In this document: positions 22,279 through 55,712 of the stretch, one piece after another
Layout: every line of letters starts with the position of its first letter
How positions within the stretch are numbered: the stretch's first letter is position 1
Origin: Candidatus Methanorudis spinitermitis
Lineage (GTDB): Archaea > Methanobacteriota > Methanobacteria > Methanobacteriales > Methanobacteriaceae
NCBI GenBank assembly: GCA_031286225.1
Contig: JAITUQ010000025.1
Coordinates: 1 to 64,000 of the forward strand
DNA length: 64,000 nt
Reading direction: 5' to 3'
Program-made: the position numbers and the translations under genes
Notes under the pieces: generated by a model
The model's input: the letters and a program-made list of their open reading frames with translations, nothing else
Database searches by the model: none
Told to the model about the DNA's origin: nothing

Positions 22279-22516
22279 AATAGCTATTAATCATTATTTT
22301 TTATAATTATAATAGCTTTAAATTATTCTTATTTAATTATATATCTATAAATTACTTTTATTTAGAATTATAATTACTATTACTAATTACTTTTTTAATT
22401 AAATATTTATAAATAATTTTTATTTACATTATTACTATTATTTATTCCATGAATATATTCATTTAAATCAAATTTAAATTAACTATTATGATTAACAAGC
22501 ATTTAATGGTGTTTTT

Positions 22517-23437
22517 ATTTTCACTGAAGCTACATTAAAAGAAAGAAGGCAGTATTATCGTGAAGAATGGTCAGAAAAAGACCTTCCTAGTTTTATTGTT
22601 GAGGAACTACATAAGAGAGAATTTGGTTTTGATCATTTTGGAAAAGGGCCTAATGATAGATATAAAGTCTTCAAATCAAGAGACTATCTTAAAAGATTTT
22701 TGAAATATAAATCTCCCTTTGCAGCTTATATTTCAGTAGCTTTTTACAATAACCCAAGAAGAAGGGAGGATTGGCTTAAATCAGAATTTGTTTTTGATGT
22801 GGATGCTAAAGATATGCCAATTCGATCATGTAATTGTGAAAATGTTTGCAAAACATGTTTAAATGAAGCTTTAGAATTTGTTCAAGAGTTAGTTGATTCT
22901 TTAAATGATGATTTAGGTCTTTCCAATATTCATATAGTCTACTCTGGAAGAGGTTACCATATTAGAATTTTAGATAAAGATATTATGGAAACTAGTAGTG
23001 AACTTAGAGGAGAACTTGTAAAATATGTTACAGGTGCAAATATTCCAAAAAACTCAATTTCATTAGGTTATACAAACCTCTTCAATAAAAGAGTTAAAAG
23101 AAATATTTTACATTTAACAGGTCATGAAAAAATTGAAGGAATTAATCCAAAACTAATGAAGGATACAATTAAAAATAGCTATTTTTTAAATGATAATCAA
23201 TGGGGATCATTTCAAGGACGTATTGGCCCAATAAGATATAAAAATTTATTAAATGCAATGGCAAGAGTGAATTTAACTGCAGTTGATGCTAAAGTTTCAA
23301 TAGATCTTAAAAGGATACTTAGACTTCCAAGTTCTCTTCATTCTAAAGTTAGTATGAAGTGTGTCGAGGTAAAAAATCCAGAAACTTTTGATCCATTTAA
23401 AGAAGCTGTTCCTAAATTTATTAATGAGCGAAAGTAG
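22517..23437 (+). CDS. priS: DNA primase catalytic small subunit, apparent ATT start
   Basis: Synthesises RNA/DNA primers. The open frame starts after a stop at about 22496 and contains no ATG, GTG or TTG before codon 62 (TTG 22700), which would delete essential sequence. Homologous sequence begins much earlier: FTEATLKERRQYYREEWSEK and REFGFDHFGKGPNDRYKVF are standard PriS N-terminal motifs. ATT 22517 lies five bases after GGTG (22508-22511), exactly the spacing used by ATG genes here, and gives 306 residues, the normal size. Catalytic residues are intact: FVFDVDAKD (metal-binding Asp pair) and YSGRGYHIRI, and a zinc knuckle CNCENVCKTC. The alternative is a one-base deletion in the T run at 22512-22516, since ATG 22507 (ATGGTG) is in another frame. 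Operon with priL. Confidence 0.9.
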   Translation: MFTEATLKERRQYYREEWSEKDLPSFIVEELHKREFGFDHFGKGPNDRYKVFKSRDYLKRFLKYKSPFAAYISVAFYNNPRRREDWLKSEFVFDVDAKDMPIRSCNCENVCKTCLNEALEFVQELVDSLNDDLGLSNIHIVYSGRGYHIRILDKDIMETSSELRGELVKYVTGANIPKNSISLGYTNLFNKRVKRNILHLTGHEKIEGINPKLMKDTIKNSYFLNDNQWGSFQGRIGPIRYKNLLNAMARVNLTAVDAKVSIDLKRILRLPSSLHSKVSMKCVEVKNPETFDPFKEAVPKFINERK

Positions 23438-23685
23438 ATTATGCTTTTTTTAAAAAAATATTAAATTTTTATTAGCTATCATTATACTATTTATTAAAAT
23501 AATAATTATAAATATTTTAATAATGATGATGTTGAAAATTAGAAGTTTAATATTAAAAATAATCTATATGATTAAATTTTATATGAAAATAATAATTATG
23601 AAAATAATTATTAATTTAAAAAGTTTTACTATAACTATAATGTAAAGTTTTTCTATAGCTTGTTATGATTGATTAAATGACTTAG

Positions 23686-25095
23686 CTACCTTTTAAGTAA
23701 CTGTCCTGGATTTAAAAAATCATCTAAAAATTTTAAAAAATCATTAAAATAGCTAATATTAGCTTCATCGTTTAAATAGTTATCATTATTTAATAGTTCT
23801 TTTATATCATTTAATTCATAGCTATTTATTATAGTTTCTTTTAAATTTTTTCCTACTTTTATGATATGAATATGTTCGCAAGTGAAAACAAATTTTATGA
23901 ATTCTTTTGCTGTTTCAAATTCTCTTTTTTTGTTTAAAACAAGAGTATCTCCTAAAATATAAGAAGTATCTTTGTGACTAGCTAAAAAGTTGCTACTTGC
24001 TTCTTCACCCCAAATTTTCGGACCTTCATGAATCCTATATTTGCTTTGCTTGTAAACATTTAACTCAAAAATAAAAATAGCTATTTCATCTTCATCTGTC
24101 CAATAATCACTTTTAAAAACAGAAAAATCATTGTTTTCTAACTTTTCTTCAAGGGATACTTGGGTTTTTCTAAGTTGGGGATGTAAGGAATCAACTGGAA
24201 CATTAGGAATATTAAATTTAATTGTTATTATTTTTGTTTTCCTATCTCTAAATTGAGAAATAAGATAATTTAAATCGATTTTTTTCTTAAATTCATGGAA
24301 ATATTCATTTCTTTTCTTATTATCCGAGTTTAAAAAATTTCTAGAAGCTATAACAAATTCAGCCATTTTTTCTCTTTTCAGTGAAGCAGCTACATTCCTA
24401 TTTTTATCAATAGGATCAATAGCTATTAATGGATCTTTAAAGAACTTGGAAGTTCCATAACTTTCTAAATCGATTTTTGTATTATTTTTCCATTTAGATA
24501 CTTTTTGCATTGTGTTTTCAAAATTATCATATTTTAAAATTAGAATTTCACAAAGATAACCTGCAAAGCCACCTACTTTAAATTCTGATCCATAAGTTCC
24601 AATTTCGCTCATGAATTTTTTAAGAAGTAAAACTTCATCTTTTTGATTTTCAGTTAAGTGTTTTTCCATGTATTGGGTATGAAGAAGTGTTCGATCTACT
24701 GCTGATTTTAATTGATTTGCATTATCTATTTTGTAACATGGAACAAAATCTACATCATAATTGTTTATATGGCTTATAATATATGGATGTGAAGCATATT
24801 TTTTTTCAGCTGTTCCATTTAGATGTTTACTACATTCATATCCTAAATATAACCCTTTTTCTTTTAAATAATCTTCAGATTTTTCAAGTGGGAAGTTAAT
24901 GAAAATATCAATATCTGCTTTTCCAGAAAGCCAAGTGTCTTTAGCTACAGAACCAACTAGAATAGCTTCAACATCTATATTTTCTTTTTCTGATTTTTTG
25001 TTTATATAATCAATTGCCTCTTTAGCTATTTTATGAACTGTTTCTCTTTCAGACTTTGATGGTTTTATTTCTTTTAAAATTTCTCTGTAGTTCAT
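23686..25095 (-). CDS. cca: CCA-adding tRNA nucleotidyltransferase, archaeal class I
   Basis: Adds or repairs the 3' CCA of tRNAs without a nucleic acid template. The 469-residue protein carries the polymerase-beta-type motif VGSVAKDTWLSGKADIDIFI (two catalytic Asp), the third carboxylate in NNYDVDFVPCYKI, and VGGFAGYLCEILILKY and a C-terminal tail domain typical of the archaeal enzyme. ATG 25095 follows GTGATTTT. Lies in a minus-strand row with thpR and the aromatic pathway genes but is separated from them by about 300 bases. Confidence 0.95.
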   Translation of the reverse strand: MNYREILKEIKPSKSERETVHKIAKEAIDYINKKSEKENIDVEAILVGSVAKDTWLSGKADIDIFINFPLEKSEDYLKEKGLYLGYECSKHLNGTAEKKYASHPYIISHINNYDVDFVPCYKIDNANQLKSAVDRTLLHTQYMEKHLTENQKDEVLLLKKFMSEIGTYGSEFKVGGFAGYLCEILILKYDNFENTMQKVSKWKNNTKIDLESYGTSKFFKDPLIAIDPIDKNRNVAASLKREKMAEFVIASRNFLNSDNKKRNEYFHEFKKKIDLNYLISQFRDRKTKIITIKFNIPNVPVDSLHPQLRKTQVSLEEKLENNDFSVFKSDYWTDEDEIAIFIFELNVYKQSKYRIHEGPKIWGEEASSNFLASHKDTSYILGDTLVLNKKREFETAKEFIKFVFTCEHIHIIKVGKNLKETIINSYELNDIKELLNNDNYLNDEANISYFNDFLKFLDDFLNPGQLLKR

Positions 25096-25403
25096 AAAAT
25101 CACATTTAATTAATTTTAAGATAATTTTGCAATGTTTTATTAATATACATAATAAATCTTATTCTTTATTATTAGTATGTTAATATAATTAGTATGTTAA
25201 TATAAATTAAAAAAATCCATATTAATTATAATTTTCATTAATATAAATTATTTATAATATTAGGATAAATATGAATTATAAAATATTTATTAATTATAAT
25301 CAGTATTTAAATATAAATTATTAATATTGGAATAAAATTTAAATTAAAAATTAGAATTGAATAAAGAATTGTAACCATTAATTAAAAAAGTTTTAACTAT
25401 TAA
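25096..25403. other. AT-rich spacer between thpR and cca
   Basis: 308 bases of A/T-rich DNA with several variants of the string AATATAAATTA. It holds the cca promoter on the minus strand and the 3' end of thpR. No gene or distinct repeat is supported. Confidence 0.35.
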
Positions 25404-25967
25404 TTATATACTGAAAGTTTTTAAATCAGAATAAATAGGTCCTTTGGGTGTTAATTCGCTCTTTTTTAATGATATTTTATCAATGCTCATTTTTCCTATT
25501 TTAATATCTTTGAAAGTAGCTATTTTCTCTTTAACTTCCTTTTTATTTTTTGGACTTCTCATTCTACCAATTGTTAGGTGAGGGGAATAATTTTTTTCTT
25601 TTTTAAAGCCTATTTTTTTAAATTCTTCATCTAATTTTTTAGCTAAATCCATTACTACTTGATTTTCCGTGATCCCAAGCCAAATTACTTTTATAAAATC
25701 TTCACTTGGAAAAGACCCAGTTCCTTCAATAGTTATATCTATAGGTTCATATTTTTTTAAAACATTTTCAGTAGATATTGATATTTTATCAACCATTTCT
25801 TCATTGATATTTCCAAAAAATTTTAGTGTAAAATGAATATTTTCTATTTCAACATATTTTATATTTGCATTTGTCTTTTCAAACTCTTTTTGAAGATCTT
25901 CAATTTTTTGAATCAATTTTTTATCAATATCAATAGCTAAAAAAGTCCTAAGTTTGGAATTATTCAT
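25404..25967 (-). CDS. thpR: RNA 2',3'-cyclic phosphodiesterase (2H family)
   Basis: Opens 2',3'-cyclic phosphate ends of RNA; formerly called 2'-5' RNA ligase LigT. The 187-residue protein has the two HxT signatures, IHFTLKFFGN (about residue 45) and PHLTIGRMRSPKNK (about 130), plus RTFLAIDID at the N terminus and GSFPSEDFIKVIWLGI between them. ATG 25967 follows AGTGATTAA. It sits downstream of dehydroquinate synthase II and upstream of cca on the same strand, in keeping with a role in tRNA or RNA end repair. Confidence 0.92.
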   Translation of the reverse strand: MNNSKLRTFLAIDIDKKLIQKIEDLQKEFEKTNANIKYVEIENIHFTLKFFGNINEEMVDKISISTENVLKKYEPIDITIEGTGSFPSEDFIKVIWLGITENQVVMDLAKKLDEEFKKIGFKKEKNYSPHLTIGRMRSPKNKKEVKEKIATFKDIKIGKMSIDKISLKKSELTPKGPIYSDLKTFSI

Positions 25968-26107
25968 TTAATCACTAAAATCCCTTTTCAACTTATTTTA
26001 ATATTTTGAGATTAGCTAGTTTTTATAGTTAAGATTAATTTTGATATAATTTGAGATTAGCTAATTTTTATAGTTAAGATTTACAAATTTTATTTTAAAA
26101 AGCTTAG

Positions 26108-27238
26108 CTATTTCTCGATAATTGTTTCTTCAATTGACATTCCAAAGTGCCTAGCACCTTTGTCTATAAAAACTTTAACTTTATCTCCAAGTTGAATATC
26201 AGAAACAGAAATAGCTTCTCCTTTATCATTTACAAGTCGGATTGTTTCAGCATTTTGAAGGAGTATTTTTATTTTTAAATCTTCATATTCTGCTTCAATA
26301 AGTATTAATGGTCTTTTTTCAATTTTTACTCGCCCAACAATGGTGGCTTTAGTTTTTCCATCTTTATCAACTACTAAAACTTCATCTCCAGTTTCAATTT
26401 CTGATAAATACTTTGTTTTATTTCCAGGAACCATGATATAAGCTTGAACAGGACCTGCATTTACTCTAAATGGTCTTGATGCTACATATTCACTTTCTAA
26501 GGATTCACTATGAACCAAAAACATAGTTTTTGAATAAGAACCAATTAGCATTCCTTCCCCAACATTCATCATAGCTGCTGCATCAATACAAACTCTATCT
26601 CCTATTCCAACAGGCTTTATTCCTGTTACAATTGCTTCTTTTAGATTGTATTCATTAGAGCTTGCATTTTGAATTAGATTAGCTATTTCTTTTATTTGAT
26701 TAAATTCTTTTGGTTGGAATATCACGCCATCAGTTCCAGTTTCTAATGTTTCAATAGCTAATTTAGCTTCACCGTAATTTGAAACAGCAGCTATAATTTT
26801 AACATCAACACTTTGAAGATCAGCTATTATATTTTCAAGTGGAATAACCTTCCAATTTTTACCAACAAGGATTAAATAATCTACTATTTTTCCAAGTTTT
26901 CTTGCTAATTCTTCGTATTTTTTATTTTGAATTTCAATATAAGCTGCTACTGGACTTCCTTTATTTTTAAAATTTTTAGCTATTTTTAAATCATTTGATT
27001 CATCTAAATTATCTTTTAAAAGAAGAGTTCCATCTCCTTCTCCTTTGATTCCAACTAAAAGTATGTCTGATTGTTCATCTTCACTAATAACTTTTATATT
27101 TCCCAATTTTTGGATATTATCAATGTCTGTTAAATCTAAAACATGATCTATTCCTGATTCAAGAGATGTTGTAATTAACTCTTTTTTTTCCTCCCAACTT
27201 TTATCAGGAGACATTATCCAAGCAAATTTTTTTCTCAT
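26108..27238 (-). CDS. 3-dehydroquinate synthase II
   Basis: Converts 2-amino-3,7-dideoxy-D-threo-hept-6-ulosonate to 3-dehydroquinate by oxidative deamination and cyclisation, the archaeal entry to aromatic amino acids. ATG 27238 ([20 protein letters not shown]) is chosen over ATG 27250, because GGGAT lies five bases before it and relatives start with this motif; length 376. Family features: a TIM-like N-terminal half, [26 protein letters not shown]-type C-terminal beta domain with [20 protein letters not shown] and [20 protein letters not shown]. The gene for the preceding enzyme lies immediately upstream (about 150 bases), so the two form a pathway pair. Confidence 0.93.
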
Positions 27239-27396
27239 TCTAAATCCCATATACTGATTATTAAATTAAAATTATTATTCTAAACTTTTAATTGTTTTAA
27301 TTTTTTTTTAGAAATTAAATTATTATAATTTTTAATTTTTAAATTTAATTTATTTTTTAATGAAAAATCTTTAAATAATTATTAAATTATCATTAT

Positions 27397-28191
27397 CTAT
27401 TCATCTAAAATTTTTAAAGCTTCTTCAATACCCATATCTTTGTGAACAACTTCAGCAATAGCTTTTGTAATTTTTCCAGGGTTTTTTGCTTGGAAAAGGT
27501 TTCTTCCAAATGCTACACCAGCTCCACCAACTTCTAAAGAATCTTTAACCATTTCTAATAATTCTTTATCAGTGTCCACTTTAGGACCTCCAGCTATTAT
27601 AACCGGAACTAAAGCTCCTTCAACAACTTCTTTAAATGTATCAGGATCTCCAGTATAATTAGTTTTTATAATATCTACCCCAAGTTCTGAACCTACTCTT
27701 GCTGCATGTTTTACTAAGTTAACATCATGTTCATTTTTAATTTTTTCTCCACGAGGGTACATCATGGCAAGAATTGGAATTCCCCATTGGCTACATGTTT
27801 CAGCTATAAATCCTAATTCAGTTAACATATCTGATTCTTTTTCAGATCCAATATTAACATGAACAGAAACAGCATCGGCTCCAAGTTGTATAGCTTTTTC
27901 AACAGAAGTTACTAATACTTTATTGTTAGGATCAGGACTAAGTGATGTACTTGCTGATAAATGTATAATAAGACCAATATCTTTTCCATAACCTCTATGT
28001 CCATGTTCTATTATTCCTTTATGCATTAAAACAGCATCAGCTCCTCCTTTGGAGATATTTTCAATAGTTTCACTCATATTGACTATGCCTTTTACAGGAC
28101 CAACAGAAACTCCATGATCCATAGGAGCAATAACTGTTCTATTAGTCTTTCTGTTAATGATTCTTTCCATTCGAATTTTTTTTCCTATCAT
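27397..28191 (-). CDS. 2-amino-3,7-dideoxy-D-threo-hept-6-ulosonate synthase
   Basis: Class I aldolase-like enzyme joining 6-deoxy-5-ketofructose 1-phosphate and aspartate semialdehyde, the first step of the archaeal dehydroquinate route. The 264-residue protein starts [20 protein letters not shown] and has [38 protein letters not shown], the Schiff-base region [13 protein letters not shown] (Lys), and [15 protein letters not shown] with the [14 protein letters not shown] phosphate-binding end. ATG 28191 follows GGGGATTAGCT. Upstream of, and probably co-transcribed with, dehydroquinate synthase II. Fructose-bisphosphate aldolase of the same family is the alternative, but the neighbour favours this call. 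Confidence 0.93.
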
Positions 28192-28496
28192 AGCTAATCC
28201 CCTGCAAATTAATCAATGAATATATTTTTTAATAATTTTAAAAACTATCTAATCAATATAGCTACTTTTAATATTATTTTCATTATTAATTTATTAATTT
28301 TTTATAATATTTATTATTATATATATTTAATATAATAAAAATTTATTTAAATATACAATTTAATATTAATTGATAAATCACATCTATTGAAAAATTTAAA
28401 CTACTTTTTTAAAAAATTTAGATAAAAAAGTTTTATAAAATATATAAAGTGAAAATCTTTTTTATTTAATATTTTAATTATATTTTCATTCTTTAA
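28192..28496. other. AT-rich spacer
   Basis: 305 bases, TATA-like runs (ATTATATATATTTAATAT near 28316) and nothing else; holds the promoter of the aromatic pathway pair on the minus strand. Confidence 0.35.
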
Positions 28497-29027
28497 TCAT
28501 TTAATAATTGATGTCCATAGCTTGAATTCATCTATTTGTGGAGGTATACCTTCACATCCACAAGATTCAAGCCAACCTTCTTTTGATTGAATATTTTCAC
28601 AAGTTACACTTGTATTAATGAAATCAACTAATCCTTTATTTCTTATAATAGTATGTTTTGGTTTTAATGTAGATGCCCATATATAATAAACCTTAAAAAC
28701 AGTATCTGGATGATAACCTCCACCTAAATCAATAGCTAAAGTATCACATTTATTTATTATTTTTGTAACTTGTTTTAATACTTCATGAAGACGTACATCT
28801 CCATTAATAAATTTTAAATTAGGATAAACAAGTTTTAAATTGTTCATTTTTGTTGTTGCTTCAGGACTGTTGTCTAAACATATTAATTTTCCATTTTCAA
28901 CTTTTTCAGCTATTAATTTGCTAGTTTTTCCAATATGGGATCCTAATTCAACAACTACATCATTTTCATTAAGGACATTACCTAATATCTTTCTATAAAT
29001 TTTTATATCATAGCTAATTTTTATCAT
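28497..29027 (-). CDS. SAM-dependent methyltransferase-like protein
   Basis: Protein of 176 residues with the class I Rossmann methyltransferase core: VVVELGSHIGKTSKLIAEKV (motif I, with ELGSHIGK in place of ExGxGxG), LICLDNSPEATTKMN (acidic residue after strand 2), FINGDVRLHEVL (motif II) and DTLAIDLGGGYHPDTVFKVY (motif IV). A C-terminal Cys cluster, SVTCENIQSKEGWLESCGCE, is unusual. Substrate cannot be named. ATG 29027 follows AAGGAATGAATA. Related proteins in methanogens are annotated only as methyltransferases. Confidence 0.7.
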   Translation of the reverse strand: MIKISYDIKIYRKILGNVLNENDVVVELGSHIGKTSKLIAEKVENGKLICLDNSPEATTKMNNLKLVYPNLKFINGDVRLHEVLKQVTKIINKCDTLAIDLGGGYHPDTVFKVYYIWASTLKPKHTIIRNKGLVDFINTSVTCENIQSKEGWLESCGCEGIPPQIDEFKLWTSIIK

Positions 29028-29162
29028 TATTCATTCCTTTTTCATAATTTATAAAATTTCTTTTTAATCTATTCCTGGTTATTTTGATTATAATTATAAC
29101 TATAATAATGGTAATATAATGTTTATATAATGATAAATCATTATAAAACAATAATTGGTCCT

Positions 29163-31468: not shown

Positions 31469-33397
31469 TTAAAAAGATATTGATGCATATTTTCCATGTA
31501 TTTTAGCTGTATTAGTATACCAGTTTTGGATCATACCTAAACTATTACTTTTGCTTGTTGTATCTGCGACTACCCATGTATTTCCTACTTTTATTTGTGC
31601 CCATACATGTCCATAACTGTTTCCACTTATAAATTTAGCTTCACCATTGACATATCTTGCAGCTATTCCACTTGCTCTACATAATGCAATTAATAAGTGA
31701 CTTTGGTCAACACAATTCCCAACTCCACCTTTTAATGTATTTTTCGCACCATATTTTGTATTCCAATAGAAGCTATAAGCAATTTTGTCTCTAACATAAT
31801 TGAATATAGATTCTGCTTTCTGCCATTCACTTGTAGATCCTTTTGTTAATTCAATAGCTAATGTTTTAATTGCTTCGTCATTAACTTGGCAATTGGTACT
31901 AGCTACTAAATAACTTGTTAAAGATTCTCCATTATATGTATCATTGAGAGAGGGACCTTGATTAGATAATGTGTTATCTTTAATAGATCCACTTTTAGTT
32001 AAAGTTACATAATTTGGCAATACATTGTTATTGTTTGTAAATTGAAGGATTTTTGAAAATCCAATAACCAATAATTTGAATTCTACTTTGCCTAATGTAG
32101 ATTCTCCATAATTAGGGGCTTGACCATTTTTAGCTATAAATCCAGAAATTCTAGAAGCTAAATCAATATAATTGTTTTTATTGATTTCACCAGCTTTTGA
32201 ATTTCCATTTTGATTAGATGGATTCTTAACAGCTATACTAACAATATTATTTTGAATGCCATTATTTATGTTAACGATGGCTGTGGATGCTAAATACAAG
32301 AATTCAGCCATAGAGTACTGTTTTCCAGAGATTGTAACATAATTAGGTAATACTTTATTAGTATTATAAAATGCTTCAACTCTGCTTCCAGCATCTGTTA
32401 TTTCAGCTAAATTTACAGATATAGATCCTGTAAAGTTTTTACTTTCGTATTTAGGAATTATTTTATTTAAATTCGCTGGACTTTTCGTGTTTAATGTGAC
32501 ATAATTTGGTAAAACACCATTATTTTTTGTAAAGTCAAGTATTCTTGAAAATGCATAAATCATTGTTTGGAATTGAACTTTTCCAAGAGATGTAGATCCA
32601 TAGTTTGGTGCTTGACCATTTTGTTCTATGTAATTTAGAACATTTCCAGCTAAAATAAGATAACCATTTTTATTAAGATTTCCAGTTATAGTATTTCCGC
32701 TTGGTTTACTTGGGTCTTTCACATCTTTCCAAAATATGTCTGAATCATTTTTTTTATCTGTATTCACAATAGATTTTGTGAGTAAATATAAAAAATCACT
32801 CATTGACACTTGTTGATTAGCTATTGTAACGTAATTTGGTAGTTTACCATTTTGTTCAACATATTTTTTCACATTAGTAGCTGCATTTAAGATAGAACTT
32901 TTACTAAATAAAGAGCTACCATCACCTGCAGCTAATATTCCACTACTTAAATTTTTTAAATTTTGATTATTTGTAGTTATTAAATTAACTACATTTTCTG
33001 TAGATAGTCCTATATCTACATTTTTGTTTTCAGTTATAGTGTTATTCACTACAACATTTGTATTTGCTTGTTTACCAATAATTTCATTTTGTGTTTCTTC
33101 ACTTAGGCTGTTATCTCTCTTATTATTAGCCGAATTTTCATCAGTATTTTTTATCACTGGTTTATTAGAATCATTATAATCATCTGTAACTTCTGCATTA
33201 TTAATTGAATTATTTACTTGATTGATAAAATCAATCGAATTATCATTGGTTTGAAATGAACTTACAGTTGAATCATAGATATCTTTAGTAAAAAGATTTT
33301 CAGCTGTTCCATTCATGCTATTTGCAAATATTGTTCCACTACTACTAATTATAATGATAATTATAAATGCAAATAACATTTCTAATTTATTTAAAAT
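31469..33397 (-). CDS. secreted pseudomurein-binding transglutaminase-fold protein, probable pseudomurein endoisopeptidase; apparent ATT start
   Basis: Probably cuts or remodels the cell's own pseudomurein. Numbering from ATG 33379: signal peptide 1-20, Asn/Ser-rich region to 160, four pseudomurein-binding repeat segments (about 163-206, 243-296, 330-372, 405-461; each with N(G/N)xxPNYxT and a SMxxFLYLL-type helix), then a transglutaminase core 515-620 with the triad C555 (GNCVDQSH), H591 (GHVWA) and D606 (VVADTT). This is the layout of the C71 peptidases PeiW/PeiP of methanogen viruses. GGAGGT (33403-33408) is 23 bases from ATG 33379 but five bases before an in-frame ATT at 33397, which would give the leader MLNKLEMLFAF with its basic residue, so ATT is preferred (642 residues). 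Paralogue of the next gene. Confidence 0.85.
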   Translation of the reverse strand: MLNKLEMLFAFIIIIIISSSGTIFANSMNGTAENLFTKDIYDSTVSSFQTNDNSIDFINQVNNSINNAEVTDDYNDSNKPVIKNTDENSANNKRDNSLSEETQNEIIGKQANTNVVVNNTITENKNVDIGLSTENVVNLITTNNQNLKNLSSGILAAGDGSSLFSKSSILNAATNVKKYVEQNGKLPNYVTIANQQVSMSDFLYLLTKSIVNTDKKNDSDIFWKDVKDPSKPSGNTITGNLNKNGYLILAGNVLNYIEQNGQAPNYGSTSLGKVQFQTMIYAFSRILDFTKNNGVLPNYVTLNTKSPANLNKIIPKYESKNFTGSISVNLAEITDAGSRVEAFYNTNKVLPNYVTISGKQYSMAEFLYLASTAIVNINNGIQNNIVSIAVKNPSNQNGNSKAGEINKNNYIDLASRISGFIAKNGQAPNYGESTLGKVEFKLLVIGFSKILQFTNNNNVLPNYVTLTKSGSIKDNTLSNQGPSLNDTYNGESLTSYLVASTNCQVNDEAIKTLAIELTKGSTSEWQKAESIFNYVRDKIAYSFYWNTKYGAKNTLKGGVGNCVDQSHLLIALCRASGIAARYVNGEAKFISGNSYGHVWAQIKVGNTWVVADTTSKSNSLGMIQNWYTNTAKIHGKYASISF

Positions 33398-33832
33398 TTT
33401 TTACCTCCAAATATTTCACCTAAAGAATTTTAACAAAAATGTTTGATGTTAAAATTCCTAAGTGGAGTATATGTTTATTGTGCTTAAATAATATAAACTT
33501 TGTGGTTTTTCATATAATTCATGGTTTTTTGCATGAATTTTCAATTAAGTATAATCTTTAGGTAAAAAACTTGAATTTGTCATGATTTATTGACTAGTAA
33601 TTATTTATTGTAATATTGAAATTTAATTAAATTTACTATGATTTATAAAAAAAGTTTTATTAAATTTTTTTTGTTAAGTATATAAATTAAAAAATAGCTT
33701 AAGTAAATAAAAAAATAGTTTAGATAAAAAAAATTAAAATTTTTCTTATCACAAATTTTAAGATTATATAAAAAAAACTTTAGATTAAAATCTTACTTTC
33801 AAAAATTTAAAATTAATAAAAATAAATTAAGA
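33398..33832. other. spacer between two transglutaminase-fold paralogues
   Basis: 435 bases. Contains the GGAGGT site and promoter of the left gene and, near 33745-33842, two versions of AGATTAAAATCTTA close to the stop of the right gene, which could form short hairpins. No ORF is supported. Confidence 0.4.
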
Positions 33833-35044
33833 TTAAAATCTTATTTCATTATAAATTCCTTTTAATGCATAACTGTTTGTATCCCAATTATTGATTAGTC
33901 CGAATTTATTATATTCTGAGTGAGAAGGATCTGCTGCTATCCAATTATTTTCTACAAGTATTTGTGTCCATACATGACCATAGTTATTTCCACTAATGAA
34001 ATTACAGGTTCCGTGAACATATCTAGAAGGTATATTAATTGCACGGCATAGAGCTATCATTAAATGTGATTTATCAACACAATTTCCTCCCTTTTTAGAA
34101 ATTGTATTTTTAGCACCATACTTAGTGTTATAGTAGAAAACATAACTTACTTCCTTATTCACATAGTTAAAAATAGCTTCTGCTTTCTGATAATTAGTAG
34201 TGTATTTACTTGTTAAATTTATAGCTAATGATTTTATAACTTTATCATTCACTTGGCAATTTTTTGTATCTTGTAAATATTGTTCTAAGGATTCTCCATT
34301 ATATTTTTCATTAATAGGTTTACTTGGTTTAGTAACTGTTCTTGTGTATTTTGGCAAGAATTTATTCATGTTACTAGATTTTTTTACATTGATTAATAAA
34401 GAAATAGGCAAATTCTTTTTTTTAAGTATTTCTATGAAACTATATATTGTTGTTTGATATTGCATATTCCCTAATGATGTTGATACATAGTTAGGAGCTA
34501 TGTTTTTTGTACTTATGAAATTAGCTACTCTTTTTGCATAATCATAGTAATCATTTTGGGAAACTTTTCCTTTAATATCTACTCCTGTTGGCTTTGTTGG
34601 ATTTTTTACATTGTATTTAACAGAAATTTGATCATTATTTTTTTCATATTTGTATTCTATTGTTTTTGCTAATAAGTACATGAATTCTGGTAGTGAATAT
34701 TTATAATCAGAAACTGTGACATAATTAGGTAATTTTCCATTTTTTGAAATAAACTCATCAACATTTTGGGATGCAACTATTATGTCATTTTGAGAAAGAT
34801 CATCTGACCGATCATTATCACCAGCAGCTAAAATTTTTGCATTAGAACTGTTTTTATTTACACTGTTATCTTTAGGAGATATTTCTATGGTTTTTAGAGA
34901 ATTATCCATATTATATATTTTTTCAGAGTCTTTATAGATTGTGCCTATTTTGTTATCATTTACATTACTAGCATAACTTGCACTAACAGTTATCAGAAAA
35001 ATGCATATTAATGTTAAAAGTAATGCTTTACTTTTCACCGTAAT
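33833..35044 (-). CDS. secreted pseudomurein-binding transglutaminase-fold protein, second paralogue; apparent ATT start
   Basis: Shorter relative of the upstream-numbered neighbour. Numbering from GTG 35038: signal peptide 1-23, spacer, two pseudomurein-binding repeat segments (about 90-130 and 165-225; NGKLPNYVTV, NIAPNYVSTSLGNMQYQT), and a transglutaminase core 280-385 with C320 (GGNCVDKSH), H355 (GHVWT) and D370 (IAADPS). The two cores share long stretches (FNYV, NTKYGAKNT, HLxIALCRA), so this is a tandem duplication with loss of two repeats. GAGGTG lies 11 bases from GTG 35038, but GGTG (35050-35053) is exactly five bases before an in-frame ATT at 35044, giving MTVKSKALLL; ATT is favoured. 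Each gene has its own spacer and ribosome-binding site. Confidence 0.85.
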   Translation of the reverse strand: MTVKSKALLLTLICIFLITVSASYASNVNDNKIGTIYKDSEKIYNMDNSLKTIEISPKDNSVNKNSSNAKILAAGDNDRSDDLSQNDIIVASQNVDEFISKNGKLPNYVTVSDYKYSLPEFMYLLAKTIEYKYEKNNDQISVKYNVKNPTKPTGVDIKGKVSQNDYYDYAKRVANFISTKNIAPNYVSTSLGNMQYQTTIYSFIEILKKKNLPISLLINVKKSSNMNKFLPKYTRTVTKPSKPINEKYNGESLEQYLQDTKNCQVNDKVIKSLAINLTSKYTTNYQKAEAIFNYVNKEVSYVFYYNTKYGAKNTISKKGGNCVDKSHLMIALCRAINIPSRYVHGTCNFISGNNYGHVWTQILVENNWIAADPSHSEYNKFGLINNWDTNSYALKGIYNEIRF

Positions 35045-35108
35045 TATTCCACCTCAGTTTTCCACCATACATTGCTTATGATTTTTATTAATATTGTCCA
35101 ATTATTAT

Positions 35109-38123: not shown

Positions 38124-38330
38124 TCAATCCTTATAATACTCATTTCTAAGCTTTAACAACTCAACAAGATTAGCCATAGCTGCTTCAGTAGCTTCAGACA
38201 AATGACCATCTGATTTAACTATTATGTTTTTCTCAATTTTTTCAAGTTGAACACCAATAACATAATCTAATAATGGAATATTATTAAAAGTGTTTTCCAT
38301 ACTTTTTAAAATATCAATAGTTTCATTAAT
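38124..38330 (-). CDS. small conserved-looking protein (68 residues) with apparent ATT start
   Basis: A perfect AGGAGGTG site (38336-38343) stands five bases before ATT 38330, and the frame has no ATG, GTG or TTG between the upstream stop and codon 11. Starting at ATT gives 68 residues: NETIDILKSMENTFNNIPLL, DYVIGVQLEKIEKNIIVKSD and GHLSEATEAAMANLVELLKL, ending RNEYYKD. It has protein-like composition with acidic/hydrophobic helix periodicity and no signal peptide. I do not recognise a family. The ATG at codon 11 (38300) lacks a ribosome-binding site. It neighbours another small ORF at 37860. Confidence 0.65.
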   Translation of the reverse strand: MNETIDILKSMENTFNNIPLLDYVIGVQLEKIEKNIIVKSDGHLSEATEAAMANLVELLKLRNEYYKD

Positions 38331-38698
38331 ATTTTCACCTCCTACCTATTAATAGGGCAAGTGGATATATTTGACTTAACTTGTATAAGAAAATTTTATT
38401 AAAAAAATAGTTTCAAAGTAGATTAATAAAATAATTTATTTCAAATTAAAAAAATTAAAGGGCTAAAAATTTTCATCTTTGTTTTTTTTGAGCTTGATGT
38501 AAAAAAAATTCGAACAAAAATGTTCTTACTCCAAAAATAATATTAATAAGTTGATAAAAGCACTTATCCTTATTTTAAAAAGAGCATGTATTACAATATA
38601 CAACCTTACACTAATATAATGGATACAATAGTTGAACTTTCTCAAAACAGTCTTTTTTTATTGAGCTTACTTAAAACTGTTTTTTTTATTAGCTGATT
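38331..38698. other. spacer with two hairpins downstream of uppS
   Basis: AAAACAGT (38644-38651) and ACTGTTTT (38676-38683) could pair with a 24-base loop just beyond the uppS stop; GAACA-AAAA-TGTTC at 38512-38525 is a second small inverted repeat, 180 bases upstream of the small gene at 38124-38330. No further ORF is supported. Confidence 0.45.
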
Positions 38699-43355: not shown

Positions 43356-43380
43356 CTGATCACCATTTAATTATTTGAAT

Positions 43381-43462: not shown

Positions 43463-43497
43463 ATGTAATGTTTTTTTTTTTTTAAAAAGCATGATGA

Positions 43498-47866: not shown

Positions 47867-48090
47867 TATTTCACCTTTTAATGATTATAGTTATTTTAGT
47901 AATAATCCTTTAATATAATTTAAGGTTTAATTTTAGTAATTATACTAAAAAATAATGTATTTTATAAAATAATATTAAACAAAATAATATTTAAATGTTT
48001 TTTAGAGCTATTGAATTACTTTAAAATTACTAGCTTTTGTCTATTTTTTATTATTTTTTCTGTCGGTATTTTATTTCTCATTTTTTTTTT

Positions 48091-48537
48091 TTAAAAATCC
48101 ATTTTTAAGTAAATCATGTCTATTAACTGTTCACCATCTTCAAAAATAGGCTCACTATAATTGTCAATAAAAAAATTATCTATCTTGTGAGATTTTTTAA
48201 ATCCACATTTCTCATAAAAACTAATTGTTTTTTCAAAGTCTCCTGTTCCAACATAGATTCTTTTGAATTTGCTCTTATTTTTACAGTAATCGATTATAAA
48301 TTCAATTAATTCCTGCCCATATCCTTGTCTTTGGTATTTTGGATATGTTGCTATGTTTTTTATTTCATAGCTATCCTTTAAAGAGGTTACCACACAAACA
48401 CTTTTTAAATCATCATCATATAAAGCAAAAAGTTCTCCGATTTCCAGGTATTTGTCTATCATCTTTTCTTCTTCATCACCTAATAATAACAAATCTAGAA
48501 ATTCTTTTTTGTTTTCCTTTATTTTTAATATTTCCAT
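48091..48537 (-). CDS. GNAT family N-acetyltransferase
   Basis: Protein of 148 residues with the acetyl-CoA-binding core: NIATYPKYQRQGYGQELIEF (Q/RxxGxG/A loop) and IYVGTGDFEKTISFYEKCGF near the C terminus. Substrate unknown. ATG 48537 follows AAGGATAAAT. It lies 70 bases downstream of hisD on the same strand and may be co-transcribed with it, though no functional link is evident. Confidence 0.85.
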   Translation of the reverse strand: MEILKIKENKKEFLDLLLLGDEEEKMIDKYLEIGELFALYDDDLKSVCVVTSLKDSYEIKNIATYPKYQRQGYGQELIEFIIDYCKNKSKFKRIYVGTGDFEKTISFYEKCGFKKSHKIDNFFIDNYSEPIFEDGEQLIDMIYLKMDF

Positions 48538-48606
48538 ATTTATCCTTTGTATTTAGCTTTTTTTACTTTTTTAATATTTTTATTAGGAGGGATTAGGAAG
48601 GAGTTT

Positions 48607-49881
48607 TTATTTTTTTAATCTAACTTTTACAGAATCTCCATGAGCATAAAAACCTTCATATTCTGCAATTGGCAAAATAATCTCTTGGAGATATTTTAAC
48701 CCTTCTTTTGTAATTGTTTGTACTGTAGGTTTTTTAATAAATGATTCTGTTGATAGACCAGAATACATCTTAGCTCCTCCTGCAGTTGGAAGAACATGAT
48801 TTGTTCCAGAACCATAATCTCCAGCAGCTACTGGAGAATATTTTCCTAAAAAAATCGAACCTGCATTGGTAATAGCTTTTAAAACCTTTTCATCATTATT
48901 AGTTGATATAATCAAATGTTCTGGAGCATAAGCATTAGTTACTTCAATTGCTTCTTCAATTGTATGGGTGAGGATAATTTTTCCATATTTATTTAAAGAT
49001 TCTCCTATAATTTCTTTTCTTTTGGCATTTTTAGTTTTCTTTTCAATTTCTTCTTTTGTTTTAGTAGCTAATGAGTTATCATCTGTAACTAAATAACATG
49101 AAGAGTTAGGGTCATGTTCTGCTTGTGATAAGATATCATATGCAATATATTCTGCGTTAGCTGTTTTATCAGCTATTATTAAAACTTCAGATGGTCCTGC
49201 TTCAAATTCAATATCCACTTCTCCAAAAACAAGTTTTTTTGCCCCAGTAACAAAAATATTCCCTGGACCTACTATTTTATCCACTTTCGGAATTGTTTTT
49301 GTTCCATAAGCCATTGCTCCAATAGCTTGAGCTCCTCCAACTTTATAGATTTCACCTGCTCCAGCAATATCAGCAGCTACTAAAATTGCATCCATTATTT
49401 TACCATCTTTTTGTGGTGGACTGCAACAAACAATTCTTTTAACACCAGCTATTTTTGCAGGAATCACAGTCATTAAAATTGTAGAAGGATATGCTGCTCT
49501 TCCACCAGGAATATAGCATCCAACACTATTTATAGGTCGAATTATTTGTCCTGCTTCTATTCCTTTTTCTATATTGATTGTCCATTCTTTTGGAATCTGA
49601 TTTTTGTGAAATTTTTCTATATTTTTTCCTGCTTTTTTAAGAGCAGTGATTAATCTTTTATCTAGATTGGAATAGCTATTTTTTATTTCTTCATAAGATA
49701 CTTTTTGACTATTGATTTTAACATTATCAAACTTTTCAGTATATTTTAAAACAGATTCATCTCCATTTTCTTCAATATCCTTTAAAATATCTGAAACAGT
49801 ATCTAAAACATTACTAATATCCTCTTTTGATCTTTTCACAAGTTTTAATAGATTTTTTTCATCATAATTTAGAATTTCCAT
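48607..49881 (-). CDS. hisD: histidinol dehydrogenase
   Basis: Carries out the last two oxidations of histidine synthesis with NAD+. The 424-residue protein has [40 protein letters not shown] with [50 protein letters not shown] (zinc ligands Gln/His), APEHLIIST and [23 protein letters not shown] 49881 follows TTGATACA, a modest site. No other his genes are near, as usual for dispersed histidine genes of methanogens. Confidence 0.96.
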
Positions 49882-50504
49882 TGTATCAACTGTATTATAA
49901 GTTAAAGATTTAAAATAAATTTTTGTAAAAATTTCATTTTTTTTGAAAATATTCTATTATTTTTAATATTTTATTATAAGAATTAATATTATCTTTGATT
50001 ATGTGAATATGAATTTATATTAAATTTATTTATTTATCAATATTTTTTAAATCTATGTAGATAGTTTTAGATTACTAAATATTATTGTAAATAGTTTTGG
50101 ATTACTAAATATTATTGTAAATAGTTTTAGATAACAGTATATTGGTTTTTGTACTTATTGGAACAGAGATTCAACAACAATTTTAAATATTACTAAGTTA
50201 AAAGATGTATTATACATAAATTCATAAAACTGAATTATTAGTGGTTAAGAAAAATTTTATACAAATATTTGCTAAACTGTTATAGTTGTTATAAATTAAA
50301 AAATTTCCCAATAATTGACTTTTATGATTGGAGAAATTTTCAGACTTATTCTAACAATTTAATATAACTCTTTGTATTATTATAATATTCCTAGATTGTT
50401 GATATCATGATATGTATGTTGTAACATAAGTTTAGCTATTGAAGTTTATTTCATCAAATGTTATAATGGCAGTTTAACAGAGGATTAGAAGGTATGGTTT
50501 TTTT
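49882..50504. other. divergent spacer with a 30-bp tandem repeat
   Basis: 623 bases between hisD (minus) and UPF0058 (plus). ATAGTTTTAGATTACTAAAT plus ATTATTGTAA forms a 30-bp unit at 50061-50090, repeated with one change at 50091-50120 and as a partial third unit at 50121-50140. An AAGG site precedes the UPF0058 ATG. No ORF supported. Confidence 0.6.
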
Positions 50505-50798
50505 ATGTATAAAGATGAAATGATTCAAATGCATCAGTTTTTAGTATATGTCTTGAAATACTTAGAAACAAATAATGAGATTCATAGTTCTTGTGGTGAA
50601 TATATAGCTTTAAATATAAGTCCTCATCATATTCACAGAACAAAAGCAGAACATAAACACGCGATATTTGTACTATCCAGCACAATTTCTGAAGTTATTT
50701 TACATGAAAACATGGATTCGGTTCCATCTAATGTTTCTAATGCATTGTCCGAACTTGTTAAAAGATCTAAAAAAGAACTAAAAATTGAATCAAAATAA
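50505..50798 (+). CDS. UPF0058 family protein
   Basis: Conserved archaeal protein of 97 residues, function unknown. It begins MYKDEMIQMHQFLVYVLKYL and continues with ISPHHIHRTKAEHKHAIFVL, which match the family closely. The HHIHR and EHKH histidines could bind metal. ATG 50505 is about ten bases after AAGGT. Monocistronic, with more than 800 bases to the next gene. Confidence 0.88.
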   Translation: MYKDEMIQMHQFLVYVLKYLETNNEIHSSCGEYIALNISPHHIHRTKAEHKHAIFVLSSTISEVILHENMDSVPSNVSNALSELVKRSKKELKIESK

Positions 50799-51656
50799 TT
50801 AGTCAAAATAAATAATCAATAATGTTTATGTTTTACATAGTTATTGTATTGTATGAATTTTTAGATAATTATATAGAAATTAAATTATAATATTTTTAGA
50901 TAACTATATAAAAATTTTATTATAATAGTATCCTCAAATAATATTTATATTCTAATTATTTCTCCTAAACTTTATTTCAATATAAATAAACATGTCTAAT
51001 AAGTCCTCACAGATATGTTTTTCTAATATATTAATTATTACAACTTTAAATATTTCAGCTAATTAAATAAACTATTTTTTTTAACTTTAATTCGAAAATT
51101 TATAATTGATTTACTATTATTTATTATTTTTATTTTAAATATAATGGGGTTATTATTTTTTGTTAATTTTAAAGTTTTTCATAATTCTAATTTTTAAAAA
51201 CTTTAAAAAGAATAACTTCCATATTATTTATTTAAATTTAATATAATTCTTTTGTTTTATAATTAAATTAATGAGAATTAATATATTTAGTAATAAATAT
51301 TTAAAATTAGAATTTATTAAATTAATCAAGTTATATATTGAATTTTCTAAGATTATAAAATCATAAATTTTTAAAATTTATAAATAATATTTGTTAAAGC
51401 TATAAAAAGAGTTTTAATGAAATATAAATTTTTAAATTCAAAATTAAGAAAAATTTCACTTTTTTAATTTAAAAATATCTTTTTCAAAATAATTATTTAA
51501 ATTTAAGAAAAATAATCATAAACCCAGTTTTTTACAAGAATGTATAACAAAAAAAATTAACCAGCAATTATAATATAATTTTATAGTATAATTTAATATA
51601 AATTAAATAAATTTGCTCTTGATGATAATGCATAATTTTTAATTAAGGTGATTTTA
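50799..51656. other. long AT-rich spacer upstream of the cDPG synthetase gene
   Basis: About 850 bases. ATTTTTAGATAA(T/C)TATATA(G/A)AAATT occurs twice (near 50857 and 50891). A GTG in the frame of the next gene at 51648 belongs to its ribosome-binding site. I see no gene, RNA or strong palindrome; the length suggests a lost gene or an unusually long promoter/leader region. Confidence 0.4.
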
Positions 51657-53039
51657 ATGAATAGTACTGAAAAAATTCTTTGTTTAGTGGATGGAGAACA
51701 TTATCTTCCTGTTACAAAATCTGCAATTGACACTTTAAATGATTTAGAACATATTGATGTGGTAGCTATTATATTTATTGGAGGAACTGAAAAATTAAGA
51801 ACTGATGATGAAGATAGCTACACTAAAATGATGGGAATGCCTGTACACTTTGGTTCTAATGAAAATGAAATTCCATATGATTTAATTGTTAAAATGGTTA
51901 AAGACTATGACGTGGATGTTGTTATGGATTTAAGTGATGAACCAGTTCTTGATTATTCAAAAAGATTTAAAATAGCTTCAAATGTTCTAGCTTGTGGAAT
52001 TAAATATCGAGGGCCTGATTTTACATTTGAACCATTAACTCAATATGACATAGCTGGAAAACCATCTCTGACAATACTTGGAACTGGTAAAAGAATAGGT
52101 AAAACTGCAGTATCTGCTTTTGCTTCAAGATTAATTAATGAAAATGGATATGATCCATGTGTAGTAGCTATGGGTCGTGGTGGACCAGAAGAACCTGAAC
52201 TAGTTAGAGGAGACAAATTAAAAATAACTCCTGAATTTTTAATGGAACAATCAGACAAAGGAGTTCATGCTGCTTCTGATCACTGGGAAGGTGCATTAAT
52301 GAGTAGAATTCTAACTATTGGTTGTAGAAGATGTGGAGGAGGAATGTCTGGGGATGTTTTCATGACCAACATGAAAAAAGGTGCAGAAATAGCTAATAAA
52401 GTTAAATCAAAGTTTATTATATTTGAAGGAAGTGGTGCAGCTATTCCACCAGTTAAAACAAATAAAAATATTGTTTTGATTGGAGCTAATCAACCTTTAT
52501 TAAATATTACTAACTTTTTTGGCCCATTTCGAATTGGATTAGCTGACCTTATTATTCTTACAATGTGTGAAGAACCTATGTCTTCTCCAGATAAAATAAA
52601 AGCTATTGAAGAATTTATATCAGAAATAAATCCAAATGCTAAAATTATCTCAACAGTATTTAGACCAAAACCACTTGGTGATATTTCTGGTAAAAATGTC
52701 CTCTTTGCAACCACAGCTCCAGATGAAATAAAGGATGTTTTAGTTAATCACTTAGAAGAGGAATATGACTGTAAGGTAGTTGGAACAACCTCACACCTTT
52801 CTAATAGACCACTTCTTCAAAAAGACATTGAAAAATACATTGATAAAGCTGATGTTATGCTGACAGAACTTAAAGCAGCAGCTGTTGATGTAGCTACAAA
52901 AGATTCTCTTGAAGCAGGACTTGAAGTAATTTATTGTGACAATATTCCAATAGCTATTGATGGAAACTATCCTAATTTATCTGATTCTATAATTGAAGTG
53001 GTTGATAAAGCTATTGAAGATTTTGATAAAAGTAACTAA
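51657..53039 (+). CDS. cpgS: cyclic 2,3-diphosphoglycerate synthetase
   Basis: ATP-dependent closure of 2,3-diphosphoglycerate to cyclic 2,3-diphosphoglycerate, the main potassium-balanced solute and phosphate store of Methanobacteriales. The 460-residue protein has a P-loop ([20 protein letters not shown]), [35 protein letters not shown] and a Cys pair [16 protein letters not shown]. The frame opens at GTG 51648, but that GTG is part of AAGGTG six bases before ATG 51657, which is the start. Not linked to other genes; the 2-phosphoglycerate kinase that supplies its substrate is not in the window. Confidence 0.92.
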
Positions 53040-53497
53040 ATAAAATAGATAATAAATATTCAATAACTATTTTTTTTTATTTATTCATTTATTATAATTA
53101 ATTTGATAAAGTTCTTAAAAATACATAGTTTGAAAATTATTATAATCTTAAATTAATAACTTTAATAGGTTTATTTTATTTAATAAAAAACTAATAATGA
53201 TAAGTTTTAAATATAATCTTTTTTAAAATATTATTATTAAAAAATAACACGATATTAATTAATTTAACATATTATCAAAATTAAAGAACTTTTAACTGAA
53301 ATTATAAATTTTTTCAGGTAAATAGCTATTTTAATAATCTTAGCCATAGCTATTTATTTTTAACCTTAATATGTTTGAATAGCTATTTTCACATAAGTGT
53401 TTTTTAGTTCTTCTTTTTTTCCACATGATAAAAAAAAAATTAATAGCTATATTCTCACTTTTTGAATTTGCTCTTTCATTTTAATGAAGTGATTTTC
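53040..53497. other. spacer dense in the TAGCTA palindrome
   Basis: Holds exact AATAGCTATT at 53321-53330 and 53378-53387 and near matches around 53346-53355 and 53442-53452, four TAGCTA cores within 130 bases. The frame of the next gene is open from TTG 53462 but its ribosome-binding site is at 53487-53493. No other gene. Confidence 0.5.
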
Positions 53498-54097
53498 ATG
53501 CTTACTCATTGTGGAACAAAAAGAATTGACACCGAAAGATTAGTTATTAGAAAATTTGATTATTCAGATACAGAAGATATGTTGGAATTTTGGATTAATG
53601 ATCCTGAAATTCAATTTTTATATTTTGAACCAATATATAGAACAAAAAAAGAGGTTAAAGAATTATTAGCTGAATATATTTCTTTTTATGAAAAACTAGA
53701 TTATTACAGGTGGGCTATCATTGAAAAAAGATCTGGATATTGTATAGGACAAATTGCATATTTTTTAATCGACACAAAAAACCATTTTGGTGAAATAGAA
53801 TTCTGTATTGGCAAAAGATTTCAAAAGAAAGGATATGGAGCAGAAGCTATTCGAGCAATTTTAGATTATGGTTTCAATAAGATAAACCTTCATAAAGTTC
53901 AAGTATGTCATGAAGAAAGTAATTTAGCTTCCAAAACACTTATAAAGAAATTTAAATTCGTTTATGAAGGAACTTTGAGAGACTACTTCTTCATGGATGG
54001 AGATTATGGCAATAGGTTATATTATTCAATGCTAAAAAGAGAATATGAATCAATGAAAAAGAGTGATAAAGATAATATTAAAGTACATTCTCAATAG
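53498..54097 (+). CDS. RimJ/RimL-type GNAT N-acetyltransferase
   Basis: The ATG at 53498 follows AAGTGATTTTC and is preferred over the TTG at 53462; length 199. It has the typical opening RIDTERLVIRKFDYSDTEDM, IGQIAYFLIDTKNHFGEIEF, the acetyl-CoA loop GKRFQKKGYGAEAIRAILDY, and the C-terminal HEESNLASKTLIKKFKFVYE-GTLRDYFFMDG. Such enzymes acetylate ribosomal protein N termini or small amines; the target is not predictable. A second GNAT gene follows 54 bases downstream, so the two may be one operon. Confidence 0.88.
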   Translation: MLTHCGTKRIDTERLVIRKFDYSDTEDMLEFWINDPEIQFLYFEPIYRTKKEVKELLAEYISFYEKLDYYRWAIIEKRSGYCIGQIAYFLIDTKNHFGEIEFCIGKRFQKKGYGAEAIRAILDYGFNKINLHKVQVCHEESNLASKTLIKKFKFVYEGTLRDYFFMDGDYGNRLYYSMLKREYESMKKSDKDNIKVHSQ

Positions 54098-54151
54098 AAT
54101 TAATAAAATACATTTAAATTAATAATATATTCATTCAAAAGCTGATTCTCC

Positions 54152-54952
54152 ATGAAAATTGGATATATAAAAAATAATGAAATTAATTCAATTAAAAAAT
54201 TTCAACAAGATGGATGGGAAGATATTGAACAACATTATCGATTTTATGTTAATTCATTATTTTGTCATCCTTTAAAATTAATTAAAAATGGTGAAATTGT
54301 TGCAATTGGGTCTGTAATTATTCATGAAGATGTAGCTTGGCTTGCTCATATAATTACTCTTTTTGATCACAGAGAAAAAGGATTTGGTGCTTTAATAACG
54401 AAAAAACTAATTGAGATATCCAAGGAAAATAATTGTTCAACAATTTATTTAATAGCTACTGATTTAGGAAAAAAGTTGTATGAAAAACTAGGATTTATGG
54501 AAGAAACTAAATATATATTTTTCAAGAAAAAAGACTTTAAAGGCCAATTTAAAATCTCTAAAAGTATTATACATTATGAACAACAATTTAAAAATCAAAT
54601 ATTTGATTTGGACCATGAAATTTCATCTGAAAACCGTGAAAAATATCTTGAAATGTTTTTAGAAGATTGTTTTGTTTTTTTTGAAAAAAATCTAATTGAA
54701 GGATTTTATACTCCTTCCTTTGGAGAAGGGCTTATTTTAGCTAATACTCCATCAATAGGAAATGAACTATTAAAAATACATTTAAATAATAATGATAAAG
54801 TAGTTTTACCAGAAAATAACATTTTTTCAATTAAATTTTTGAAAAATAATGGTTTTTATCAAAATTTAACTGCAACAAGAATGAGATTAGGTTTAAAAAG
54901 ACCAGTACAATATGAAAAAATTTTCAATAGAATTGGAGGAAATTTAGGATAA
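54152..54952 (+). CDS. tandem GNAT-fold N-acetyltransferase
   Basis: Protein of 266 residues with two GNAT-like halves. The first (1-130) is complete: IVAIGSVIIHEDVAWLAHII, FDHREKGFGALITKKLIEIS (acetyl-CoA loop) and DLGKKLYEKLGFMEETKYIF. The second (135-260) is reduced: FFEKNLIEGFYTPSFGEGLI, a shortened cofactor region and NIFSIKFLKNNGFYQNLTAT, without a recognisable QxxGxG loop. The second half probably serves dimerisation or substrate binding. No clear Shine-Dalgarno site before ATG 54152; translational coupling with the upstream GNAT gene is possible. Confidence 0.8.
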   Translation: MKIGYIKNNEINSIKKFQQDGWEDIEQHYRFYVNSLFCHPLKLIKNGEIVAIGSVIIHEDVAWLAHIITLFDHREKGFGALITKKLIEISKENNCSTIYLIATDLGKKLYEKLGFMEETKYIFFKKKDFKGQFKISKSIIHYEQQFKNQIFDLDHEISSENREKYLEMFLEDCFVFFEKNLIEGFYTPSFGEGLILANTPSIGNELLKIHLNNNDKVVLPENNIFSIKFLKNNGFYQNLTATRMRLGLKRPVQYEKIFNRIGGNLG

Positions 54953-55187
54953 TAATTCTAAAAAATGTGAAGAGGAAGTATCTCATAAATAGCTTTATAA
55001 AAATAATATTTCACATAATTCGAATTTAAAGTTATATTTTTCTTTAAAATTTAAATTATAATTAATTAAATTTATAAAATAATAATTATTAGTTAATATT
55101 CAAAATGATTAATAAAAAAACTATTTTCGTCTATAATCATCTAAAATATATACTATAATCATAAATAATTAAAAATAAGGTGTTTAA

Positions 55188-55712
55188 CTGAATAAAGAAG
55201 CTATAAAAAAGATTTTAAAATTTTCTATTAAAGAAAAGGAAATAATAAAAGCTCTTGATTTACCAGAGGAAGTATTCTTACCATTAATATTTTCTGTTAG
55301 GTTTGGTGGAGATTGGAGTGTAAATAAAAATTCTAAAAAGCTAATGTCAGTTAAAGAAAAGATAACTAAGTATGATAAGGAAAAAAAGATTGGTTATACT
55401 TTAGAAACAATTTATCTATTTATCAATCCTATTTTACTAAAAAAAGAAGGTAAAATATATAGAATGGAAAAATGTGGGAATAAAAATCAAAGAGAATTGG
55501 TTGAAAGACCCCATTCTGTTGTAGTAAATGGAGATTACATTTTAAAAGCTGTTTTAAATCCTAAAGATATGAAAATAGCTATTAAACATTTAAAAGGACC
55601 ATTAACATTTTTTGGATCAGCTGCTTATGGATCTTCTCATGAAATAGAACATTTAGCTAATGAAAATATTAAAGGTATTCCTTTTTGGGACTTTGAATAT
55701 GTTTTAGAATGA
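55188..55712 (+). CDS. hypothetical protein of 174 residues with apparent CTG start
   Basis: ATG 55344 gives only 122 residues and has no ribosome-binding site, while the same frame continues upstream without stop to CTG 55188, which directly follows a TAA and lies five bases after AAGGTG (GGTG 55179-55182). No ATG, GTG or TTG lies near that site. The added residues are protein-like: LNKEAIKKILKFSIKEKEII, KALDLPEEVFLPLIFSVRFG, GDWSVNKNSKK. The rest contains ETIYLFINPILLKKEGKIYR and GPLTFFGSAAYGSSHEIEHL. I do not recognise the family; it has no signal peptide or membrane helix. It stands alone between a GNAT gene and an oppositely oriented membrane protein. Confidence 0.7.
   Translation: MNKEAIKKILKFSIKEKEIIKALDLPEEVFLPLIFSVRFGGDWSVNKNSKKLMSVKEKITKYDKEKKIGYTLETIYLFINPILLKKEGKIYRMEKCGNKNQRELVERPHSVVVNGDYILKAVLNPKDMKIAIKHLKGPLTFFGSAAYGSSHEIEHLANENIKGIPFWDFEYVLE

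Follow-up and report, generated by a model that had tools for sequence, protein, structure and literature searches.

Five genes in a 64,000-nucleotide stretch (the window) of the genome of Candidatus Methanorudis spinitermitis carry ATT or CTG where a start codon is expected, raising the question of whether translation begins at these codons. The genome belongs to a Methanobacteriaceae archaeon, a methanogen of the termite gut, and comprises 1.91 Mb in 55 contigs, with a completeness of 93.9%. Judged from the sequence, the ATT and CTG codons are very probably genuine translation starts that are directed by a Shine-Dalgarno (SD) sequence, use the ordinary Met-tRNAi on near-cognate codons and constitute a regular minor class.

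Direct reading of the window places all five codons where the first-pass annotation had located them. The gene priS, encoding the small subunit of the essential DNA primase (Pfam PF01896; 22517..23437, plus strand), begins with ATT at 22517–22519, preceded by GGTG at 22508–22511. Two genes on the minus strand encode proteins composed of pseudomurein-binding repeats (PMBR) and a transglutaminase core. The first, a secreted protein (31469..33397; PF09373, PF01841), starts with ATT at 33397–33395 behind GGAGGT at 33408–33403, and the second (33833..35044; assigned by Pfam) starts with ATT at 35044–35042 behind GGTG at 35053–35050. A 68-residue protein of unknown family (38124..38330, minus strand) has a probable ATT start at 38330–38328 behind GGAGGTG at 38342–38336. 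The fifth gene encodes a PF05618-like (zinc protease-like) protein (55188..55712, plus strand) and starts with CTG at 55188–55190, preceded by GGTG at 55179–55182. The genes are designated below by the first base of the start codon.

The SD and the codon are separated by five bases at all five sites. GGTG had also been reported at all five, and is present at four; the motif at 33397 is GGAGGT. Five bases is the commonest gap between GGTG and ATG as well (152 of 244 GGTG-bearing ATG starts), so the geometry of the window sites is the normal one of the organism. The presence of an SD at every site separates them from leaderless starts, which lack an SD and lie at the mRNA 5′ end. The median SD score is 4.2 for ATT, ATC and ATA starts and 2.6 for ATG starts, a difference that is partly due to the selection of calls.

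The nearest upstream in-frame stop lies 8, 2, 4, 6, and 1 codons away from 22517, 33397, 35044, 38330, and 55188, respectively; it is TAA at 33397 and at 55188, directly in front of the CTG in the latter. No ATG, GTG, or TTG is found between the codon and this stop at any of the five sites. The first canonical codons downstream are TTG at +61 (22517), ATG at +6 (33397), GTG at +2 (35044), ATG at +10 (38330), and ATG at +52 (55188). Two genes, priS and 55188, are therefore without a nearby standard start, rather than the three originally counted. In the other three, the canonical codon is 2–10 codons downstream, beyond the usual SD spacing.

The start of priS was compared across species. The nearest named match of the genome is the Methanobrevibacter metagenome-assembled genome Th196P3bin91, in which priS is 91% identical. 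Of the 17 species with an AUH start, 13 have ATT, three ATC, and one ATA. They include three cultured isolates: M. filiformis DSM 11501 (ATT), M. curvatus DSM 11111 (ATC), and M. cuticularis DSM 11139 (ATT). Seventeen further species have ATG or GTG at the aligned codon. Eleven of these 17 have an upstream in-frame stop that is reached before any ATG, GTG, or TTG, and their next canonical codon is 19–121 codons downstream. Counted from the ATT, residue 3 of PriS aligns with residues 4–5 of solved PriS chains. Two sets of sequences were left out of the count: L074, which has several canonical codons upstream, and Methanothermobacter, where ATC or ATA occupies the aligned codon but an in-frame ATG lies upstream in three of four sequences and all of them show a longer SD spacing. 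A programmed frameshift from an out-of-frame ATG that overlaps the priS SD was also considered and rejected, as this ATG is not conserved, being missing in M. cuticularis, M. filiformis, M. curvatus, and others.

These data bear on the idea that the true starts lie farther upstream and that ATT encodes an internal isoleucine. A conserved isoleucine codon would indeed give an interchange of ATT, ATC, and ATA, and in some relatives a GTG at −3 falls within the SD, or canonical codons lie further upstream. However, a stop precedes any canonical codon in all five window genes and in the 11 priS species, relatives show ATG or GTG instead of an isoleucine codon at the aligned position, and the N termini of solved homologs fall within a few residues of the ATT. 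While the interchange alone is compatible with isoleucine, the upstream stops and the replacements by ATG, GTG, or TTG exclude it, leaving an upstream start very improbable.

The gene at 55188 provides a second case of replacement. CTG is found in this genome and one sister (G002), and the aligned codon is TTG in 18 relatives, in which the GGTG in front is conserved. Alignment with relatives, proposed in the first-pass annotation as a check, thus favors true starts at both genes, with the priS codon either kept as AUH or changed to ATG or GTG, and CTG changed to TTG. A homolog of 55188 in another genome (G064 C5:77895-78405) is interrupted by numerous stops, which points to a pseudogene or to an assembly of poor quality.

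The two transglutaminase-core genes also have informative homologs. The homolog of 33397 in the finished relative G027 carries GGAGGTAAAAAA-ATT at the matching place, and an ATG follows six codons on in both genes. Initiation at the ATT of 33397 supplies the basic N-region expected for a signal peptide, and initiation at the ATG would lose this Lys-containing region before the hydrophobic stretch. The homologs of 35044, four in the same genome (G000) and two in G027, have GGTG, five bases, and then ATT or ATC at the matching place. An ACG start one codon later, which was preferred by the start model described below, is excluded for this family because the next codon varies (ACG, TCG, or AAA) while ATT or ATC stays. 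The genes between 31469 and 35044, together with homologs on contigs C34, C21, C22, and C23 of the same genome, represent an expanded family of secreted PMBR and transglutaminase-core proteins, possibly cell-wall enzymes. ATT or ATC starts occur in several members. The protein encoded at 38330 has weak homologs in eight other genomes, the best of which is 50% identical over residues 6–65, and its start is the least certain of the five.

An initiation at downstream canonical codons, yielding shorter proteins, draws on the ATG at +6 of 33397, the GTG at +2 of 35044, and the ATG at +10 of 38330. However, these codons have no SD at normal spacing, the 35044 homologs lack the GTG and yet retain ATT or ATC, and 33397 would be deprived of its Lys-containing N-region. 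By the same reading, PriS would lose 61 residues, including conserved primase sequence, and the 55188 protein 52. Downstream starts are thus very improbable as a general explanation, but an N-terminally trimmed product beginning at codon 2, 6, or 10 downstream, with no SD at the usual distance, is conceivable at three window sites.

An error of sequencing or assembly, or a mutation, could in principle change ATG to ATT and TTG to CTG in a metagenome-assembled genome, and the window does come from a 55-contig, 94% complete assembly. Such an error, raised earlier as an alternative and now rejected, is extremely unlikely: priS has an AUH start in the three cultured isolates and in other independent, metagenome-derived assemblies, and the near-cognate excess described below is repeated in the single-contig genome G027.

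The use of start codons was then modeled across the genome. The model covered 1346 genes, gave all 61 sense codons equal initial weight, and learned the SD motif and spacing from the genome itself. It assigned 1114 starts to ATG, 131 to TTG, 32 to ATT, 25 to GTG, 6.2 to CTG, 5.8 to ACG, 5.4 to ATA, and 5.3 to ATC, with at most 3.4 for any other codon. The top eight codons are therefore ATG and seven of its one-base neighbors. Because such winner-take-all fitting favors winners, the counts were rechecked with a fixed codon prior, in which non-canonical codons are weighted by background frequency alone and own-codon bias is removed. In this retest, near-cognate codons, one base from ATG, account for 14 of 21 confident non-canonical calls, compared with 14% expected (p=7e-8). 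When SD contexts were shuffled within genes, near-cognate codons fell to the chance level of 14% (22/160). G027, of which 400 kb were modeled, gives 9 of 12 (p=5e-6). Modeling of 350 kb of E. coli K-12, which is not matched in GC content, detected no near-cognate excess. The model misses the known AUU of E. coli infC and is thus conservative for rare cases. Where a gene lacks a confident canonical start, GGTG at a gap of 4–8 bases precedes ATT 16 times in frame, and 2 and 6 times in the other frames. The genome-wide count suggested in the first-pass annotation is positive in this genome and in G027, and E. coli gives a null result. Together with the relatives, it supports the earlier proposal that the organism uses non-canonical starts more than usual.

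AUU, AUC, and AUA, and rarely CUG, constitute a regular minor class of start codons in this Methanobrevibacter-like archaeon and its family, amounting to about 2–3% of genes. The AUH class is conserved across genera in priS, pheA (prephenate dehydratase), and tiaS. For pheA, most non-rumen relatives have ATT, ATC, or ATA behind a strong conserved SD, and G011, G022, and G026 have ATG; in G017 and G027 the codon is an ATA slightly upstream. Among 139 genomes of the family searched for the first-residue pattern of tiaS, 34 have ATT or ATA (24 and 10, respectively) and four have ATG. The tiaS gene of this genome (G000 C49:59488) has a stop six codons upstream with no canonical codon between, and its start agrees to within about one residue with the N terminus of solved TiaS. 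TiaS, the tRNA-Ile2 agmatinylcytidine synthase, enables tRNA-Ile2 to read AUA; notably, ten genomes from five genera, the present one included, use AUA as the start codon of tiaS itself. Additional non-canonical starts in this genome are found in hisS (CTG), rrp41 (ATC), queC (ATT), and a ferredoxin gene (ATT), the last two being named from sequence motifs. Orthologous pairs between G000 and G027 also exchange ATA and ATG at a single aligned position.

The initiator tRNA appears ordinary. An initiator-type tRNA on contig C47 (37860–37934) has the CAU anticodon, and no second or altered-anticodon initiator was found among the 30 tRNA genes detected in the 94% complete assembly. Three CAU tRNAs are expected (initiator, elongator Met, and Ile2), of which two were found (G000 C34:50404 and C47:37860); the third may contain an intron or fall into an assembly gap. 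The 16S 3′ end was not found in the assembly. Given a CAU initiator and no altered one, the simplest account is SD-anchored initiation by normal Met-tRNAi. A strong SD at the usual distance would position the 30S subunit, and the initiator Met-tRNA could then start on a codon one base off AUG, in the way that it initiates at GUG and UUG. The first residue would be methionine, and the near-cognate codons presumably lower the initiation rate.

Why the weak starts persist is a separate matter. Neutral drift, in which strong SDs and AT-biased mutation render ATT starts tolerable without any function, has an even chance of being correct. The GC content is only 25.7%, and variable surface proteins account for many ATT starts; enrichment of secreted proteins among the ATT, ATC, and ATA starts of G000 is not significant. 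Against drift, priS, pheA, and tiaS retain AUH over long evolutionary distances though a single base change would bring ATG back. The AUH label requires 3 changes on the priS tree, versus 16.8 with shuffled labels, although several forks are weakly supported and near relatives inflate the clustering. Within the Methanobrevibacter group, species with ATG are nested among AUH lineages, which would fit an old AUH start swapped for ATG in some vertebrate-gut lineages. Low output may suit the genes with conserved weak starts, which would account for their retention.

A more specific proposal treats the weak starts as a common means of regulation, as in E. coli infC and pcnB, through which the genes respond jointly to initiation stringency set by the level of aIF1 or Met-tRNAi. 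It agrees with the gene-specific conservation of AUH in priS, pheA, and tiaS. In Sulfolobus, aIF1 discriminates against non-canonical starts, according to work cited in PMC6237735. A comparison of aIF1 (SUI1) loci (L250, L252-L254, L257, L259, L261-L263, L266-L270, L274) revealed a basic C-terminal tail of ~12 residues in Methanobrevibacter-like genera (RDTDKKFNRRKRR in this genome) that is absent from Methanosphaera (G004), Methanothermobacter-like genera, and other families. However, the tail is a lead only, because ATG-using rumen relatives have it too. In addition, aIF1 starts with ATG in all family copies whose start was read, so the self-control of infC, exerted through an unusual start of its own, is not seen in them. 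The shared device is rather unlikely on this evidence. A broader formulation, in which the whole archaeal family uses AUU, AUA, and AUC regularly and selection holds priS, pheA, and tiaS at AUH as a control of translation strength or a response to aIF1, can be put forward tentatively.

The start class affects annotation. When only ATG, GTG, and TTG are allowed, a few percent of genes in these archaea, essential ones included, are truncated, shifted, or lost, and start-codon surveys are blind to the near-cognate class because they are built on such annotation. Prodigal considers only these three codons (PMC2848648), which may explain why the class went unnoticed. A limited search of open-access papers retrieved no account of AUU starts being common in archaea. 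Because AUU ranks above GUG in this lineage, it offers a natural system for studying archaeal initiation stringency (aIF1, aIF1A, and aIF2), and the function of the weak conserved starts of priS, pheA, and tiaS is directly testable in cultured species.

Several known systems resemble the window sites in part. The E. coli genes infC (IF3) and pcnB (poly(A) polymerase) have AUU start codons, one base from AUG and behind an SD. The window sites share this arrangement, with a near-cognate codon at SD distance and no canonical start available upstream. However, very few E. coli genes are of this type, whereas the class described here covers about 2–3% of genes, is archaeal, and is conserved across genera. 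The GTG and TTG minor starts of prokaryotes share the SD geometry and, as expected, the initiator tRNA, but the mismatches here are at the third base (AUH) or a C at the first (CUG). In Halobacterium salinarum, GUC was reportedly used as a start by Srinivasan and colleagues in 2006, likewise a case of archaeal non-NUG initiation, but on an engineered leaderless mRNA rather than in SD-led natural genes. Conserved non-AUG starts in chloroplast genes, the natural case studied being the GUG of psbC, have been proposed to tune output (PMC9845219). Conservation across species is common to the two systems, one chloroplast and the other archaeal. The start class described here is real and apparently ordinary in mechanism; its frequency, domain, and conservation are what is unusual.
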